Below are positions 25,195 through 33,378 of a DNA stretch of 33,378 nucleotides, in pieces; within the stretch, counting starts at the first letter, position 1, and each line of letters begins with the position of its first letter. Origin of the DNA: an uncultured bacterium (GTDB lineage: Bacteria > Bacteroidota > Bacteroidia > Sphingobacteriales > Sphingobacteriaceae); the NCBI GenBank assembly GCA_903958995.1, contig CAJBVG010000111.1:1-33378 (forward strand), written 5' to 3'. Below the pieces are notes generated by a model that saw only the letters and a list, made by a program, of their open reading frames with translations, ran no database searches and was not told where the DNA came from. Position numbers and translations under genes: made by a program.

Positions 25195-25947
25195 TTAGTC
25201 TTTAAAAATAAATTGTAAAATTTTGGATAAAGGCTTCATCAATAAAGTATAAAACTTTGGCTGCACACCATTTACAGTCCAAGCTCTCCTATCATCTCTA
25301 TTTGCATTTAAACGGTGCTGTAAGCTACGGTTACTCAATCCACCTTCTCGCATCAATACAAATACTTTAGGGATATATGCCAATTTAATGTTCTTCACAT
25401 GTATTACACGTAACATAAACTCATAGTCGGAAGCAGATGGCATATCTGTACGAAAAACGCCAAATTCATCATATACTTTTTTGCGAACATAAAAAGTCGG
25501 ATGAGGTGGCATCCACCCTTCTAAAAATTTACCGGGTCTATAGGTTCCAGATTTCCAGAATCGAATAACCTTACTAAGGTCATTTTGCTGCACATATTTT
25601 AAGTCGCCATAAACACCTGAGATTGTCTCATCATTAAAGGCCTTCATTACATCATCTAACACATTATTGTCAGCATAAACATCGTCAGCATTTAAAATAC
25701 CTATTACATCTCCTGTGGCCATAGCAATACCCTTATTCATTGCATCGTAAATGCCATTATCTTTTTCGGAAATCCATTTCGAAATTACTCCTTCATTTTT
25801 TTGAATAATTTCAACAGTATTATCTTTCGACAATCCGTCTACCACTATATATTCAATATTTGGATATGTCTGCTTTGAAATAGACATAATAGTATCTGCT
25901 ATTGTTGCAGCTGAATTATAACAAACTGTTATGATGCTAATTTTCAT
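25195..25947 (-). CDS. Glycosyltransferase family 2
   Basis: MKISIITVCYNSAATIADTIMSISKQTYPNIEYIVVDGLSKDNTVEII; GIYDAMNKGIAMATGDVIGILNADD. Confidence 0.92.
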   Translation of the reverse strand: MKISIITVCYNSAATIADTIMSISKQTYPNIEYIVVDGLSKDNTVEIIQKNEGVISKWISEKDNGIYDAMNKGIAMATGDVIGILNADDVYADNNVLDDVMKAFNDETISGVYGDLKYVQQNDLSKVIRFWKSGTYRPGKFLEGWMPPHPTFYVRKKVYDEFGVFRTDMPSASDYEFMLRVIHVKNIKLAYIPKVFVLMREGGLSNRSLQHRLNANRDDRRAWTVNGVQPKFYTLLMKPLSKILQFIFKD

Positions 25948-25949
25948 TG

Positions 25950-27680
25950 CTATGCTCTAGCGATATAAAAGTTGTCCATTACTAATACATCCATCTTCGT
26001 TCTTAAATAACAATCTAAGGCTTCTTGAGGTGTATTCACAATAGGTTCGTTTTCATTAAACGAGGTATTCAACAAAATTGGAACACCCGTTTTTTCATTA
26101 AAACGTTCAATAAGGCGATGGTAAATTGGTTCGTTCAATTTATCCACTGATTGTAATCTTCCGGTACCGTCAACATGTGTTACTGCCGGAATTTTATCTC
26201 TCATTTCGGGTTTAATAATGAACACCTTTTCCATGAATGGTACTTCGTCTGTTTGTTCAAAATAATCAGGAACTTTTTCAATTAAAATAGAAGGAGCGAA
26301 TGGTCTAAACGACTCTCTTCTTTTAATTTTTAGATTTAATATTTCTTTCGCATCGTTTCTACGAGGGTCGGCAATAATAGAACGGTGCCCTAATGCACGT
26401 GGACCAAATTCTGCTCTCCCCTGATACCATCCAATAACTTGTCCATCGATAATACGATCAGTTACAATATCAATTAATGCTTCTCTATCCTCAAAATATT
26501 GGAATGCTACATTATTACGTGTTAAAGTTTCTTCAATTTCTTCTTTAGTAGCTTTGTATCCGTAATAGCCAGTTTTACTAACTAGTGTTCTTTTATTTTT
26601 TTCTGTTTGATGGTAGTAATACAATGCGGATCCAATGCTTGTACCAGCATCATGCGCTGCAGGAGGTATATACAAATTTTTGAAACCTGTATTTAATATT
26701 ATTTTACCATTTGCTACTGAGTTTTGTCCAACACCACCAGCTAAGCATAAATTTTCTGATTTAGTTTTCAAACGTAAATGTTCAGCCATATGGAAAATAA
26801 CTTCTTCGGTTACTGCTTGAACACTCGCTGCTAAATCCTTATGGTATTGACTTAACTCTTCCTCTTTACCTCTAGCTGGCCCAAATGATTTTACGAACTG
26901 ATTCGAATACATCGTATCAACAAACGGAATTCCGTCTGTCCATGTCATGTTTACACCATTACGTGTATGGTTAAAGTAATTTAAATTCAATTTGAACAAT
27001 CCATCAGAAGTTAATTCTATAACCTGACGAACTTGCTCTTTATACAAGGCTTTGCCATATGGCGCCAAGCCCATCACTTTATACTCATCACCATAATGAG
27101 GAAATCCTAAGTATTGAGTAAATGCGGTATAAAACACCCCTAAGGAATGAGGATAATTTACTTTATCAAGTACTGTAAGTTGATTGCCTTTTCCATAAGA
27201 TGTCATAACAGAAGAGAAATCTCCGAAACCATCAATTGATAAAACGGCAGATTCTTCGAAAGGAGAAACGAAAAAAGCACTAGCTAAATGAGAACGATGA
27301 TGCTCAACATTTACAAACTTAGCTTTCATTGAAGAAAACTGATCTGAGAAGTGCAAGCGAAATTCATCTTCAATATTACCAGCTTTTCGAATATTAGATA
27401 CTCTATCTTTTATATTTCCTATGCTTAATCTATTTTTTAAAGCGCTAATAACCTTCAAGCCAAAATTAGCATACGGATCTCTCGAAATAGTAATAACATC
27501 AATATCTTTAAGGGTTAGACCCGCATCTTCTAAACAGAATTTTATTGCTTCGCTAGGAAAACCAGCCCAATGCTTAATTCTCCTAATTCGTTCTTCTTCT
27601 GTGGCAGATACTACTTGTCCGTCTATTAACAAACATGCAGATGCATCTCCATGATAGGCATTAAGTCCTAGTATTTTCAT
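25950..27680 (-). CDS. NodU/CmcH-type carbamoyltransferase
   Basis: MKILGLNAYHGDASACLLIDGQVVSATEEERIRRIKHWAGFPSEAI; LSIDGFGDFSS; CLAGGVGQNSVANGKI; WYQGRAEFGPRALGHRSIIADPR; PILLNTSFNENEPIV. ATG at 27680 preferred; the track start 27704 is a TTG. Confidence 0.92.
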   Translation of the reverse strand: MKILGLNAYHGDASACLLIDGQVVSATEEERIRRIKHWAGFPSEAIKFCLEDAGLTLKDIDVITISRDPYANFGLKVISALKNRLSIGNIKDRVSNIRKAGNIEDEFRLHFSDQFSSMKAKFVNVEHHRSHLASAFFVSPFEESAVLSIDGFGDFSSVMTSYGKGNQLTVLDKVNYPHSLGVFYTAFTQYLGFPHYGDEYKVMGLAPYGKALYKEQVRQVIELTSDGLFKLNLNYFNHTRNGVNMTWTDGIPFVDTMYSNQFVKSFGPARGKEEELSQYHKDLAASVQAVTEEVIFHMAEHLRLKTKSENLCLAGGVGQNSVANGKIILNTGFKNLYIPPAAHDAGTSIGSALYYYHQTEKNKRTLVSKTGYYGYKATKEEIEETLTRNNVAFQYFEDREALIDIVTDRIIDGQVIGWYQGRAEFGPRALGHRSIIADPRRNDAKEILNLKIKRRESFRPFAPSILIEKVPDYFEQTDEVPFMEKVFIIKPEMRDKIPAVTHVDGTGRLQSVDKLNEPIYHRLIERFNEKTGVPILLNTSFNENEPIVNTPQEALDCYLRTKMDVLVMDNFYIARA

Positions 27681-29040
27681 ATTTCTCGTTGAATCTAATG
27701 GCAATAACCATCATTGCAAAAATAACAAAATAAGAGATGATATTGAAGATGAAATGATGGTCGATGTTAATATTACTCCATTCAGTATAGGCGATACCAA
27801 CGGCAGATATTCTCAAAATATTTAATATATAGATGATTAATAAACCTACAAATAAATATGTTCTACGCACAAGATATTTAAATGGATAAGATAGTGCCAA
27901 AGCAATTTGAATACTCATTATACCATATCCTAAACAACTATACCCGACCCCGACACGCACTCCATCAATTATTTTCAAATGATAGGGTAATCGTATAGTG
28001 TCATAATTAAATATAGATAAAACTAAAGATGAAAAATAAATAATCGACTCGCGTAACCATCGAATATAATTCAAATGTTGATCTAAAAACGATGAGTAAA
28101 ACCTTCCGCCCTCTCCAGTAATTCCAATAAATAACTCGTTAAAGTAGTATAGCAATAAAAAAATGATGATGAATCGAGAGACAAAAAATATTTCACGATA
28201 ATTTTTTTTCGAATTTGCTTTTAATTCAAAAATATTTTGATCGACCGTTCGTCTGTACCAATAGGCTTGTAAATAATGAAACTTGGAACCAGTATAACCA
28301 TCTAGGAAACCTCCTAATATGATATATCGAGATAAGAAATAAATAATCGGACGGACAAATAGTGGCATTCTATTCCACATATTTTTTAAAAACAACCTAC
28401 GTTGATCCTGATTACCAAATAATCGTCCAGGGTTAGTTAGCAATTTCTCGTATTCTTCTTGAGCTTGAAGTTTAGCATATTTAACATGTTTGCTCTTCCA
28501 GAATATTAAATCTTCTTTTAGGTTATTCTCAATCATGTCTGATTGTAAACGTGCCGTCTTACCTTTAACATAGAAATGATGATCCATCAATTCAGATTCA
28601 TCCAAAAACACATCATCTTTTTTGAAGAGTTTTAGTAGAAAACGATTTTGATATCCACCGAATCGAATCCATTTCTCTAAAAAATAATTTCTTCGTCTAA
28701 TATAAAATCCACTAGTCGTAATTTCTTCTTTTGAACTAAACAACTCCATCAATTCTAAATTTAACTCTTGCGTAATGGTTTGGTCTGCATCTAATCCCAA
28801 TACCCAATCTACATCTTCAGGTAGTTGCGTTAATGCGAACTTCCATTGTTTTGTGTGAGTTTCAAACTTATTTGCGATAAATGTTGCACCAAATGCTTTT
28901 GCTATTTCTTCAGTTCCATCTGTAGAAAATGAATCTATAACAAATACATTTGCATTTAAGCCCTTAATACTCTCGAGGCATTTGGGAAGATTGAGCTCTT
29001 CATTAAATGTTAAAATTACTACAGCTAAGTTATTGCTCAT
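27661..29040 (-). CDS. GT2 glycosyltransferase - exosortase/archaeosortase-family fusion protein
   Basis: N-terminal GT2 (VVILTFNEELNLPKCLESIKG; IDSFSTDGTEEIA; LGLDADQT) to about residue 265, then about 175 aa of multi-TM sequence with GYSCLGYG (Cys369), LNILRI (Arg410), DHHFIFN (His428/429) in the order expected for exosortases. Confidence 0.8.
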   Translation of the reverse strand: MSNNLAVVILTFNEELNLPKCLESIKGLNANVFVIDSFSTDGTEEIAKAFGATFIANKFETHTKQWKFALTQLPEDVDWVLGLDADQTITQELNLELMELFSSKEEITTSGFYIRRRNYFLEKWIRFGGYQNRFLLKLFKKDDVFLDESELMDHHFYVKGKTARLQSDMIENNLKEDLIFWKSKHVKYAKLQAQEEYEKLLTNPGRLFGNQDQRRLFLKNMWNRMPLFVRPIIYFLSRYIILGGFLDGYTGSKFHYLQAYWYRRTVDQNIFELKANSKKNYREIFFVSRFIIIFLLLYYFNELFIGITGEGGRFYSSFLDQHLNYIRWLRESIIYFSSLVLSIFNYDTIRLPYHLKIIDGVRVGVGYSCLGYGIMSIQIALALSYPFKYLVRRTYLFVGLLIIYILNILRISAVGIAYTEWSNINIDHHFIFNIISYFVIFAMMVIAIRFNEKYENTRT

Positions 29041-29044
29041 AGAA

Positions 29045-30181
29045 TTAATGTGAGTTCAACGATGTGTTGTACATCGCAATGTACCTATTAGAAATATTCG
29101 CTTCTGAGAAATTACTCTCTATAATAGAGGTTGAAGTCTCTCTAATGTTTTTCAATTTTTGCGGACTTGTTTTGCTTTCATTTAAAACTTCTTCTAAATT
29201 ATTTACAGAGCTATCATACACCCAACCTAAATTATTGTCCGAAACAAAATCAGATAAGCCTACATTTTTCGAAACAATTACAGCAGTGCCTTGTGCCAAA
29301 GATTCTAAAACAGTATTCGCGAAATTCTCATCTTTAGAAGGAAGTATAAATACATCTGCATTTGCATAAGATCGAATTTTGTCGTCATTATACAATGCCC
29401 CTTTCCAAGAAATACTATTTTCTATCATCAGTTTTCTAGACAATAATTTTAATTCTTCTATATAGTTTGAATCGCCATCGCCTACTATACTTAGGTGGTA
29501 ATTAAAACCCACTTTACTCAATGCACTAAACAAATCCTCTAACCCTTTTTTGGGATGAATCCTAGACAAAAACAACAAATTGAAAATATCAGAATTTTCA
29601 CTTCTAATTACATTTTGAGACTTTGAATTTACATCAACGTAATTTGGTACATCAATTAAAGTATAGCGTGGATTTAATTTATCTAATTTCTGTTTCTCAT
29701 CATTACTAGTCACATGAATTATAGCATTTTTCAATAAATAGTTCCCAATAAGGTTGTGAATAATCTTTTTTACAATAGAATGCTCAATTGTATATGGGCT
29801 AAGCATTCCCCTCGGACTAATAATATATTTCCAAGATTTTATTTTACAAATAAGTGCTGTTAAAACTGCGACAGTATTCCACCACGACTGTATATGTATT
29901 ACCTGGTATTCGCCACCATGTTTCCATAGATAGCGCAGCATACCAATCGACAAATGAGAATGGTCTTTAGTTTGACGCTTGAAAAATCTAATATTAACAC
30001 CATCCATTTGTAAAGGGTGTAGTGTATCAATTGTTAAGTTCTCCTTACCATTTGCATTAGTTGACAGCACAAACACTTCGTTATGTTTCAATAAATTTTC
30101 AGCTAAATAAGCTACCGAAAATATTGGTCCGCCGTAAACAAATGCAGGCTTATAAGAAGGAGTAATGATTAAAATTTTCAC
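29045..30181 (-). CDS. Glycosyltransferase family 4 (resembles XrtY-associated type)
   Basis: MKILIITPSYKPAFVYGGPIFSVAYLAENLL; SPRGMLSPYTI; LFLSRIHPKKGLEDLFSAL; DVFILPSKDENFANTVLESLAQGTAVIVSKNVGLSDFV. Confidence 0.9.
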   Translation of the reverse strand: MKILIITPSYKPAFVYGGPIFSVAYLAENLLKHNEVFVLSTNANGKENLTIDTLHPLQMDGVNIRFFKRQTKDHSHLSIGMLRYLWKHGGEYQVIHIQSWWNTVAVLTALICKIKSWKYIISPRGMLSPYTIEHSIVKKIIHNLIGNYLLKNAIIHVTSNDEKQKLDKLNPRYTLIDVPNYVDVNSKSQNVIRSENSDIFNLLFLSRIHPKKGLEDLFSALSKVGFNYHLSIVGDGDSNYIEELKLLSRKLMIENSISWKGALYNDDKIRSYANADVFILPSKDENFANTVLESLAQGTAVIVSKNVGLSDFVSDNNLGWVYDSSVNNLEEVLNESKTSPQKLKNIRETSTSIIESNFSEANISNRYIAMYNTSLNSH

Positions 30182-30183
30182 TT

Positions 30184-31608
30184 CTAACGGCTGTTTACTG
30201 AATGAAAATACTTTGGATTTGGAATGATATAGTTAAAACGCTTCATGGTGAATAATACAATGAACATGGATACAATACCCCAAAATATTGAGTTCACTAA
30301 AAACTCCATGCAATTTCCTCTATTCATAATTTGAAACAAGCCTAAGTATATCCAAATGGTCCCTAAGTTATAACCACAGAATAAATATTCTGCAGCAGTG
30401 TTGATTAAAGATGTTATTGCACCAAATGCAAATAATACCAAAAACACAAACAACAATCCACCAGATAAATAGGCATCCACAACAATTGGAGGCTTAGCCG
30501 ATACAAGCATTTGTTGATTAACTACACCTACTTCATATACTCTTTTCATTACATGCTCTTCAATGTCGGGTTTATCAGGCCAAAATAATCGAGGTAATAT
30601 AAATCGAAATGAATCCCATATAATTGTTATTCCATAATAATTAATTTCTGAAGGAACTTTACGTTTGTATTCATTTAACATGGAGATTTCAGAGGCTCGA
30701 GTAACTAAAAACTCCCAGTTGTCATCGTAGACATTAATCTCCCCAGATTGAATGGCATCAATTGCTGATTGTGCTGCTTCAGATGATTCTACACCCTCAG
30801 CCCATGCTTGATTTCTATATGTAGCATTAAAACTAGGTAAGAAAAATACAACCAAAAAGAATATAGGTAATGCCGAAAAGATAACTGTTCTTTTATATCG
30901 TGGATATAAATAGGCTGCAAAAATGATTATGGTAAAAATAATTGGCTCTTTCCAACCAGATAATAGTACTTGAGCAAAATTTATAGCGAATAATACATAA
31001 GCCAAAATATAAAATTGTGCCTTTTTATTATCTGATTTATAAAGTATTGATATAATAGAAGAAATATAAGCAAAATCTGCTGCCTTCACAGAGAACTGAC
31101 TAAGACCTGGAATAAATAGAAATACAAATTTTAAAATTGTTAAAAGTACAGCTGCTTTCAAGAAAAAATTAGCATCTATCTTTTCTTCATTTACAATCCA
31201 TTTTATGTTTTTCTTATATTGAAGAAAAAACAATAACCCAAAAGAATAGGCCGCATGCGCTAAAGCATAAATTCTTTGACTAGCTGCGGTTTCATCAAGT
31301 GTTGAGTAGTCAATATAAAACACCGGCGATTTAATGAAATTCTTATACCCTAACACATCTAAATAAAAAAACACAGAGGTTAAGCTCATGTATCCAACAA
31401 ATATTAATTGACCTAAAAACATAGGTCGCATAAATTGATGACTTAAATCAAAATCTTTAGGGATAGGACGAATTACGCCGTAATACACTAATATTAAATT
31501 CAGAATGGAACCACCCCAAGCAATGCTATATGAAACAGCGGGGTTACTTGCTAAAAGCGAAGCAAAAAACCAGGGTATAAATAAAATAAGATATCGTAAG
31601 TTAAACAT
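30184..31608 (-). CDS. Wzy-like O-antigen/exopolysaccharide polymerase-type membrane protein
   Basis: 474 aa, many TM segments with a large soluble loop (FLPSFNATYRNQAWAEG...ITIIWDSFRFILPRLFWPDKPDIEEHVM), inside a glycan locus. Assignment rests on topology, context and remembered similarity. Confidence 0.65.
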   Translation of the reverse strand: MFNLRYLILFIPWFFASLLASNPAVSYSIAWGGSILNLILVYYGVIRPIPKDFDLSHQFMRPMFLGQLIFVGYMSLTSVFFYLDVLGYKNFIKSPVFYIDYSTLDETAASQRIYALAHAAYSFGLLFFLQYKKNIKWIVNEEKIDANFFLKAAVLLTILKFVFLFIPGLSQFSVKAADFAYISSIISILYKSDNKKAQFYILAYVLFAINFAQVLLSGWKEPIIFTIIIFAAYLYPRYKRTVIFSALPIFFLVVFFLPSFNATYRNQAWAEGVESSEAAQSAIDAIQSGEINVYDDNWEFLVTRASEISMLNEYKRKVPSEINYYGITIIWDSFRFILPRLFWPDKPDIEEHVMKRVYEVGVVNQQMLVSAKPPIVVDAYLSGGLLFVFLVLFAFGAITSLINTAAEYLFCGYNLGTIWIYLGLFQIMNRGNCMEFLVNSIFWGIVSMFIVLFTMKRFNYIIPNPKYFHSVNSR

Positions 31609-32761
31609 TCTTTAATAAGGCGTTTTCAAAATTAACAACTAATTTATTTATTGACCAATCTTTAATATTGATGATGGACTTCTCTTTCATCTCCATTAAT
31701 ATGATATTATGTTGAATAAGCTCTTTCATCTTTACAGATAACATATCACTATTACCAGCTTCAAATATATACCCATTATTGGTAATTAAATCAACAGCGG
31801 AACCAACTTTATCACTTGCAATTATAGCTAATCCACAATTCATGGCTTCATTTATTCCTAAGCCCCATGTTTCTGAAACCGATGGCAATACAAAAACGTC
31901 AGCTGAACGATAAATCATTGGCATTTGAGATTGATTCATAAACCCTACAAAACGAATATTGGGGTCTGTTGAAGACATATTTTTTAACATCTCTTCATCA
32001 GGGCCATTCCCTACCATTAGTAAAGTGCAGGGTTGATCTTTCAAATTCAATTTCGCTTGAATAAGTGTTTGTAGATTTTTTCTGTATTCAAATTTCCCAG
32101 TATAAAGAAAAACTGTATGATTCTCTGGGATTTTCAATTCAGACTTAAAATCTGCGACCTTACGCTTTAACTCATCAGTATAAACAACAAACCTAGATTC
32201 ATTAATTGCATGAGGTGCAAAAAAAATGTTTTCTTCTTTAAAACCTACCCATTTATAATACTCTTTGTTGTTACTTCCTACAGCAATTGGGTAATCTACA
32301 TTTCTATAGATCCAATTTAAGTATAATCTTCTGATTAAATTTTTGAAAGATGATTGCTTAGTTAGTAGATGAGAATCTCCTCTGAAATAAATTGGCACCT
32401 TGCCTTTGAAATACTTCAAAACAGATAGATGACTTTTAAAACTCCATCCAAAAACAACAATTTTATCTGGATTATACTCTTCTATTCTTTGTATAATATC
32501 TGGATTCACTATGCCATTAAAATGATGTGTCCCGGGATCTTGTGCTGTATTATTTAGAAACTCGTATGAATAACCTTCTAATAAAGGAACATCCCATTCT
32601 ACTACTCGATTGAATCCTGGATCAAATTTATTTATGGATTGTTCTCCCCAAGTATAAAACACTTTTAGATCTATATTCCCACGCTCTACTAGTCCAGTTA
32701 ATATTGGCACATAGTATTGTATAGGATGAGATATAATAAATGCTACTTTGACTTTACTCAT
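31601..32761 (-). CDS. Glycosyltransferase family 4
   Basis: VAFIISHPIQYYVPILTGLVERGNIDLKVFYTWG; FLYTGKFEYRKNLQTLIQA; DVFVLPSVSETWGLGINEAMNCGLAIIASDKVGSAVDLI. Overlaps the next gene by 8 nt. Confidence 0.92.
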   Translation of the reverse strand: MSKVKVAFIISHPIQYYVPILTGLVERGNIDLKVFYTWGEQSINKFDPGFNRVVEWDVPLLEGYSYEFLNNTAQDPGTHHFNGIVNPDIIQRIEEYNPDKIVVFGWSFKSHLSVLKYFKGKVPIYFRGDSHLLTKQSSFKNLIRRLYLNWIYRNVDYPIAVGSNNKEYYKWVGFKEENIFFAPHAINESRFVVYTDELKRKVADFKSELKIPENHTVFLYTGKFEYRKNLQTLIQAKLNLKDQPCTLLMVGNGPDEEMLKNMSSTDPNIRFVGFMNQSQMPMIYRSADVFVLPSVSETWGLGINEAMNCGLAIIASDKVGSAVDLITNNGYIFEAGNSDMLSVKMKELIQHNIILMEMKEKSIINIKDWSINKLVVNFENALLKNV

Positions 32762-33378
32762 TTATATTTCGAGATTTAAAATTCTAAATTTAGGAGAGTC
32801 AATAATAATTTTTTTCACATATTCAAGATCTCTTACATAAATTAAATTATCAAAATCGTGTAGTTTTGCTGGTATTAGTACTCTTCTAAATGGATCATAT
32901 TCAAAAGATTGAAACCCATATGATTTTAACTTTTCATCAATGTCAGTATCTTTAAACCCATAATTCATTCCACTCCCATTTAATTCAATTATAATTGCTT
33001 TTAATGAATTCTTTTTAAGAGTTTCTTCCCCTCCATTTAATACTTCTAATTCAAAACCTTCAACGTCAATTTTCAATAGACTTGGGTTTTCATTATTTAA
33101 TATCGCATCAAGCGTGTTCACTTCAATTTTCTTAGTAGTCGAGTTTGCTTCACTTGAATTTACAACATGATTCATTGAGGAATCTTGTTCATCTGAAAAC
33201 AATAATTCTCCCTTTTGGGAAGAAAGCCCAATGTTCATTAATACTGTATTTTTAGAAATATTATTTAATGATATATTTTTATGCAATTGATTAAATGTAT
33301 TTGGAACTGGTTCAATACAATAAGTGTGTGCGCCAATCTCTGCTGATGCTAAAACTGTATAACTTCCGATGTTAGCCC
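32762..33378 (-). CDS. FkbM-family SAM-dependent methyltransferase (N-terminus beyond window edge)
   Basis: LLKIDVEGFELEVLNGGEETL. Reading the same frame past the listed TTG start gives ANIGSYTVLASAEIGAHTYCIEPVPNTFNQLHKNISLNN, a FkbM-like SAM-binding region open to the window edge. Confidence 0.85.
   Translation of the reverse strand, partial: ANIGSYTVLASAEIGAHTYCIEPVPNTFNQLHKNISLNNISKNTVLMNIGLSSQKGELLFSDEQDSSMNHVVNSSEANSTTKKIEVNTLDAILNNENPSLLKIDVEGFELEVLNGGEETLKKNSLKAIIIELNGSGMNYGFKDTDIDEKLKSYGFQSFEYDPFRRVLIPAKLHDFDNLIYVRDLEYVKKIIIDSPKFRILNLEI

Follow-up and report, generated by a model that had tools for sequence, protein, structure and literature searches.

An exosortase Y polysaccharide locus of an uncultured Sphingobacteriaceae bacterium and a candidate mini-protein substrate encoded beside a type IX secretion cargo gene

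The window analyzed here is the whole of contig C111 (CAJBVG010000111.1; 33,378 bp), which belongs to the metagenome-assembled genome (MAG) GCA_903958995.1 of an uncultured bacterium of the Sphingobacteriaceae (2.3 Mb, 356 contigs, 94% complete). Between 25195 and 33376 it carries seven genes on the minus strand, the fifth of which is a fusion of a GT2 glycosyltransferase (GT) and an exosortase. An earlier note on this DNA had described seven same-strand genes with small gaps or overlaps as an exopolysaccharide (EPS) locus, and this arrangement was reproduced, with spacings of 0, -8, +2, +4, -44, and +2 nt in transcription order. The locus could not be extended past 33378 in the source genome because the contig ends there. 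Its features are given below in transcription order.

32762..33376, minus strand: FkbM methyltransferase, 5' part cut off by the contig end (TIGR01444, 99.6 bits, cut-off 37.7)
31601..32761, minus strand: GT4 glycosyltransferase (PF00534, 106 bits), with its position kept in relatives (cluster c3)
30184..31608, minus strand: exosortase Y-associated Wzy-like polymerase (NF046084, 499 bits, cut-off 420)
29045..30181, minus strand: XrtY-associated GT4 glycosyltransferase XYAG1 (NF046085, 424.9 bits, cut-off 400)
27661..29040, minus strand: GT2-XrtY fusion (PF00535, 53.6 bits; NF046083, 135 bits, cut-off 160; TIGR04178, 33 bits, cut-off 23)
residues ~1-278 of the fusion, minus strand: GT2 part, with DAD at 84-86
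residues ~282-446 of the fusion, minus strand: exosortase Y part
27934..27936, minus strand: codon of catalytic Cys369
27811..27813, minus strand: codon of catalytic Arg410
27757..27759, minus strand: codon of catalytic His428
25950..27704, minus strand: NodU/CmcH-type O-carbamoyltransferase (PF02543, 212 bits; PF16861, 231 bits)
25195..25947, minus strand: GT2 glycosyltransferase (PF00535, 94.5 bits)

The fifth gene does encode an exosortase in its C-terminal part, as had been proposed. This domain belongs to the exosortase/archaeosortase superfamily (TIGR04178, 33 bits, cut-off 23), matches the exosortase Y (XrtY) model NF046083 with an E-value of 2e-39 and retains the catalytic Cys369, Arg410, and His428, whose columns are invariant in an alignment of 17 XrtY/XrtX proteins. 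The exosortase X (XrtX) model reaches 58 bits on the same domain, far behind the XrtY model, and in the tree the window exosortase groups with above-cut-off XrtY proteins, apart from XrtX. Judged by these comparisons, it is best called XrtY-like. Because the family matches (NF046083-NF046085) come together with the three catalytic residues, the locus is identified as belonging to the XrtY polysaccharide type, which NCBI has already curated. XYAG1 and the Wzy-like polymerase over their cut-offs, the gene order of the relatives and the Cys/Arg/His site are all as in that curated locus, whereas the window differs in its XrtY score (135-138 bits vs. 160) and in the fusion of the GT2.

Concerning the substrate, no plausible open reading frame (ORF) with a C-terminal hydrophobic stretch and a basic tail was found in the window, in agreement with the earlier note, and the same scan of the matching loci of 12 relatives found none next to XrtY. 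The source genome as a whole was then covered with curated models. PEP-CTERM (TIGR02595) gave no match at E ≤ 10, while the PID-CTERM tag model (NF046080), which is numbered next to XrtX, XrtY, and their associated proteins in NCBIfam, matched exactly one protein (46.1 bits, cut-off 26), of 62 residues and encoded on another contig. The description of the locus as lacking a substrate therefore fails genome-wide. This mini protein (MKKVFKHTLALTALLVAFSIPTFA-QDPGPDPGGDPDA-PID-GGIGILAAAGIAYGVKTLRKKN) comprises a signal peptide, a Pro/Gly/Asp stretch of ~13 residues, and the tag, and nothing more; its predicted released peptide has ~16 aa (QDPGPDPGGDPDAPID), with the signal-peptide and tag cleavage positions of all mini proteins placed by eye. 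Predicted mature peptides have 16-27 residues in XrtY genomes, and in other genomes the median length up to the tag is ~22 aa. The linkers are low-complexity Pro/Gly stretches of non-conserved sequence with 0 or 2 Cys in 44/44 examined, and they are acidic in XrtY genomes (median D/E fraction 0.29 vs. 0.00 elsewhere, p = 3e-6). The source genome has only one exosortase, and its congener G001 keeps both an exosortase and a PID-CTERM protein. That XrtY would process the PID-CTERM mini protein is the best-supported part of the mechanism set out below.

Class-wide profiling, a check suggested in the earlier note, linked the two components. The sample consisted of 198 GTDB representative genomes from the class, many being MAGs. 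Any hit to the XrtY model at E ≤ 1e-6 counted as an exosortase, a criterion broad enough to take in XrtX and further subtypes. Exosortase and PID-CTERM occur together in 84 genomes, PID-CTERM alone in four, the exosortase alone in 36, and neither in 74 (p = 1.3e-21). The mini gene is the immediate upstream neighbour of the exosortase gene, on the same strand, in 54 of the 88 PID-positive genomes. Within the family of the window, PID-CTERM was detected in 9/13 exosortase-positive vs. 0/12 exosortase-negative genomes (p = 5e-4), and G132 has three contiguous genes, one XrtY-like (115 bits), one for a PID mini protein, and one for a cargo protein (see below). Two genomes act as natural knock-outs. 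G007 and Rhodocytophaga aerolata (L003) have the GT4, the Wzy, the second GT4 (in the XYAG1 position), and the GT2 without XrtY; neither PID-CTERM nor the cargo domain was found in them, so that the polysaccharide genes can persist without XrtY and XrtY tracks the mini protein. Rhodocytophaga aerolata also has a NodU-like gene, placed directly after the GT2 with no exosortase between (L003 9989-12594), as if XrtY were missing from a locus that is similar in other respects. An exosortase acting on a distant protein, one of two alternatives offered in the earlier note, is thus supported by a sole PID-CTERM protein that is unlinked to the locus and by this strong co-occurrence.

The mini gene of the source genome starts 5 bp past the gene of a 944-residue protein with a C-terminal type IX secretion system (T9SS) tail (PF18962, 46.6 bits, cut-off 27; TIGR04183, 41.6 bits, cut-off 23). 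The order of cargo gene and then mini gene recurs in G001, G012 (twice), G013, G019, and G022, and in G024 with a 470-bp gap. In a wider set of 35 genes upstream of mini genes, 23 encode a T9SS tail and 21 have in common a conserved region of ~230 residues just before the tail, for which no Pfam or NCBIfam model is listed. This region is present in 128 of the 198 genomes and follows the exosortase closely (both in 115, region only in 13, exosortase only in five, neither in 65; p = 1e-32), also after stratification by family (p = 1.7e-6). Since the cargo model was built from cargos adjoining PID genes, the association was rechecked without the model-building genomes, and it held (p = 7.5e-6). 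The signal as a mere reflection of T9SS presence was rejected, as the T9SS gene SprA is found in 191/198 genomes and the association is unchanged among these. All 10 genomes of the window's family with the region are exosortase-positive, and individual searches of the family's 12 exosortase-negative genomes and of Rhodocytophaga aerolata did not find it; a generic T9SS domain is disfavored by its absence from these 13. The region is not exclusive to exosortase genomes, given the 13 exosortase-negative genomes of the class that have it, and G162 and G192 hold 10-14 copies with no exosortase detected. At ~234200-259000 of contig C6 in G015 (L126, L099), large T9SS cargo genes stand in tandem with a mini gene at the end. 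The order of mini and cargo genes and the tracking of the exosortase by the cargo domain are apparently undescribed so far.

The cargo gene also led to mini genes that the curated tag model does not detect. XrtY-positive G003 has no NF046080 match, yet a cargo match on contig C67 pointed to a gene of 78 residues with the tag CPIDTPVILLVAAVLFLTVKK, directly after a T9SS-tailed cargo gene; it was missed by the hidden Markov model and found because the cargo position showed where to look. G015 has the same arrangement with the tag PLDTW. Additionally, in six exosortase-positive, PID-negative genomes (G133, G061, G164, G069, G203, and G044), divergent mini genes are flanked by the exosortase gene and, upstream, by a T9SS-tailed gene (tail called by eye), an arrangement not found in G038 and G188. 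Such genes in PID-negative genomes show that the tag family, P-[IVL]-[DN], is wider than the curated PID-CTERM model captures. By appearance, the exosortases of G027, G033, G037, G080, and G095 lack the adjacent trio of cargo gene, mini gene, and exosortase.

The partnership with the glycosyltransferase is also recurrent. GT2 and XrtY form a single gene in G000, G001, G003, and G015, and are split into adjacent genes in seven relatives (G002, G012, G013, G014, G019, G022, and G024). A single origin of the fusion was rejected: G024, sister to the clade of the window, has the two genes split, and well-supported branches of the tree demand at least two fusion/fission events. The recurrent fusion suggests that GT2 and XrtY cooperate, perhaps by having the acceptor produced at the site of the exosortase. 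An AlphaFold model of the fusion, computed from a four-row alignment, had a pLDDT of 50 and was unusable.

From the gene families, the catalytic residues, the presence of a single exosortase and a single PID-CTERM protein, their co-occurrence and adjacency, the cargo-mini order and the co-absence in the natural knock-outs, we infer a mechanism in which the cleaving enzyme, the cleavage site, the transfer chemistry, the acceptor, and the docking are all proposals. The GT4s, the GT2s, and the Wzy-like polymerase would make an exopolysaccharide bearing carbamoyl and methyl decoration. After export by Sec, the mini protein would stay attached to the inner membrane through its C-terminal helix. XrtY, beside its dedicated GT2 (fused in the window), would then cleave at P-[IL]-D by means of its Cys-Arg-His site and pass the ~16-aa peptide to an acceptor that is probably either the glycan or the lipid carrying it. 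Finally, the surface-exposed conjugate would pair with the T9SS cargo, for example as a docking site in the matrix. As far as XrtY cleavage of a mini protein encoded on another contig, we give this reading a probability of roughly 0.7. The attachment of a short acidic peptide to the glycan comes, on the same comparisons, somewhat short of an even chance, and docking of the cargo on the conjugate is doubtful. Equally tentative is the extension to a class-wide three-part device of exosortases X and Y, in which a peptide-tagged polysaccharide would dock a dedicated family of giant T9SS proteins and the mini protein would be the linker.

In another explanation, also considered in the earlier note, the exosortase would need no protein substrate and would itself act on the glycan or the carrier lipid, e.g., in polymer release or ligation. 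Such an activity would agree with the place of XrtY within a polysaccharide locus, with its tie to a GT2 by fusion or adjacency and with the matching loci of 12 relatives, where no substrate gene was found; nevertheless, we regard it as very unlikely, since G007 and Rhodocytophaga aerolata keep the EPS core and lack, along with XrtY, both PID-CTERM and the cargo, and since exosortase and PID-CTERM co-occur (p = 1e-21) and are often adjacent. If the mini protein is a substrate, XrtY might simply free a short peptide that serves as a signal or as a small secreted factor and is never attached to a glycan, in which case the position of XrtY in the locus would reflect co-expression only. A very short mature peptide (16 aa here, with a median of ~22 aa elsewhere) with 0 or 2 Cys would suit this role. 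However, the linkers are low-complexity Pro/Gly and not a conserved sequence, and attachment is preferred over free release because XrtY is joined to a GT, by fusion or adjacency, and Wzc-like, Wzx-like, or GT genes are likewise encoded close to XrtX; release alone is therefore considered unlikely. There is a smaller chance still that the mini protein and the cargo have nothing to do with XrtY, whose true substrate would be unassembled or carry an unrecognised tag. A MAG of 94% completeness in 356 contigs and an unlinked mini gene leave room for this, as do the longer P[IL]D-tagged proteins of the XrtY relatives G014 and G002, but the genome's only exosortase and only PID-CTERM protein are both kept in G001, the exosortase-negative genomes of the family all lack PID-CTERM, and the XrtY-like gene of G132 stands directly beside a PID mini gene.

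Several observations weigh against XrtY cleavage and transfer of the mini protein as proposed here. The mini gene is unlinked to the XrtY locus in the source genome and in most XrtY relatives, and for this reason the pairing rests on sole-candidate status and co-occurrence, the latter of which could also stem from a common lifestyle and not from direct action. The XrtY score of the window exosortase (135.1/137.8 bits) is under the curated cut-off of 160. The near-complete XrtY genomes G002 and G014 lack the cargo domain and have longer P[IL]D-tagged secreted proteins of 135-182 aa (tags CPLDTY, CPIDGY, PIDDY, PLDNY, and PLDDY), and G010 (71% complete) shows neither mini protein nor cargo; because of these three genomes, mini protein and cargo are not obligatory companions of XrtY. 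The cargo domain also serves elsewhere, as 13 genomes carry it, some in 10-14 copies, without a detected exosortase. Pairing, cleavage and acceptor are deduced from sequence comparison. As for the location of the longer tagged proteins, three are in tandem in G014 (L101 1080-2838) and those of G002 are at L100 2762-3169 and L113 6025-6453.

The remaining genes of the locus concern the glycan, which is plausibly carbamoylated and methylated, to judge from their families. The called start of the carbamoyltransferase is a TTG; the likely start is an internal ATG at 27680, which would agree with the relatives and shrink the overlap with XrtY from -44 to -20 nt. Most XrtY relatives have a different gene in this slot 3' of XrtY. 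A hexapeptide-repeat acyltransferase occupies it in eight of them (L038-L041, L043, L045-L047), whereas a carbamoyltransferase is found in the window, G001, G024, G014, and by resemblance G132 (L036, L037, L044, L098). The two were never seen together in the slot across the relatives, as if carbamoyl and acyl groups were alternative decorations on the same glycan. In three relatives, a conserved membrane protein of 77-93 aa (such as ..WYAQPWVWVVGVAVFIIIIIAITR..), probably unrelated, is encoded close to an ATP synthase gene and several kb from XrtY (L040 16227-16508, L043 5252-5503, L045 659-892).

Among the known systems, XrtX with PID-CTERM (NF046081, NF046080, NF046082) is alike in that the mini substrate adjoins a T9SS cargo gene and polysaccharide genes are close; it differs as a separate clade, with the mini gene usually adjacent to the exosortase and with mostly neutral linkers, often containing CWPPPC. 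In four loci, XrtX is followed by a small membrane protein and then by a conserved protein of 423-424 aa (L128 8715-9203, L131 7120-7596, L133 2744-3214, L140 7411-7872), and the small membrane protein of L128 matches the XrtX-associated NF046082 below its cut-off. PEP-CTERM systems usually have many substrates per genome. The PEP-CTERM/EpsH exosortase A system (PMC1569441) similarly combines a tripartite C-terminal tag, an exosortase, and EPS genes, but the motif there is PEP, while the source genome has one PID mini substrate and no PEP-CTERM. XrtG (TIGR03110, TIGR03111) had been offered as an analogy, and the part of it that stands is the exosortase with a dedicated GT2; the absent target does not, as a candidate substrate was found here. 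Moreover, the window exosortase has no XrtG match among those listed, and its GT2s fall outside the XrtG-associated family (36 bits for the gene at 25195-25947 against TIGR03111, cut-off 364). XrtF of Flavobacterium johnsoniae, in the passages on exosortases of PMC10936215, is likewise a Bacteroidota exosortase with a testable phenotype, since surface colonisation needs xrtF and a neighbour gene; its substrates are unknown and its subtype is different, the window exosortase scoring 25 bits against an XrtF cut-off of 90.

The general proposal for exosortases, as summarized in PMC7468200, is tag cleavage followed by conjugation of the new C terminus; this paper also speculates on a sugar chemistry common to exosortases and type IX secretion. 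The passages on exosortases in that paper and in PMC10936215 do not report a link between exosortase X or Y and T9SS cargo. A literature search for exosortase Y, XrtY, and PID-CTERM found no paper, and the three text matches to XrtY were unrelated. Substrates and chemistry are known for only a minority of exosortase subtypes. Here a single exosortase pairs with a single tiny candidate substrate, and this one-to-one pairing makes exosortase function testable with a single gene deletion and a single analysis by mass spectrometry. The conserved T9SS cargo neighbour suggests joint action of exosortases and T9SS in the construction of the cell surface and biofilm matrix. If true, this would be a three-part device in which a mini protein joins two export systems, exosortase and T9SS, that are usually treated apart.

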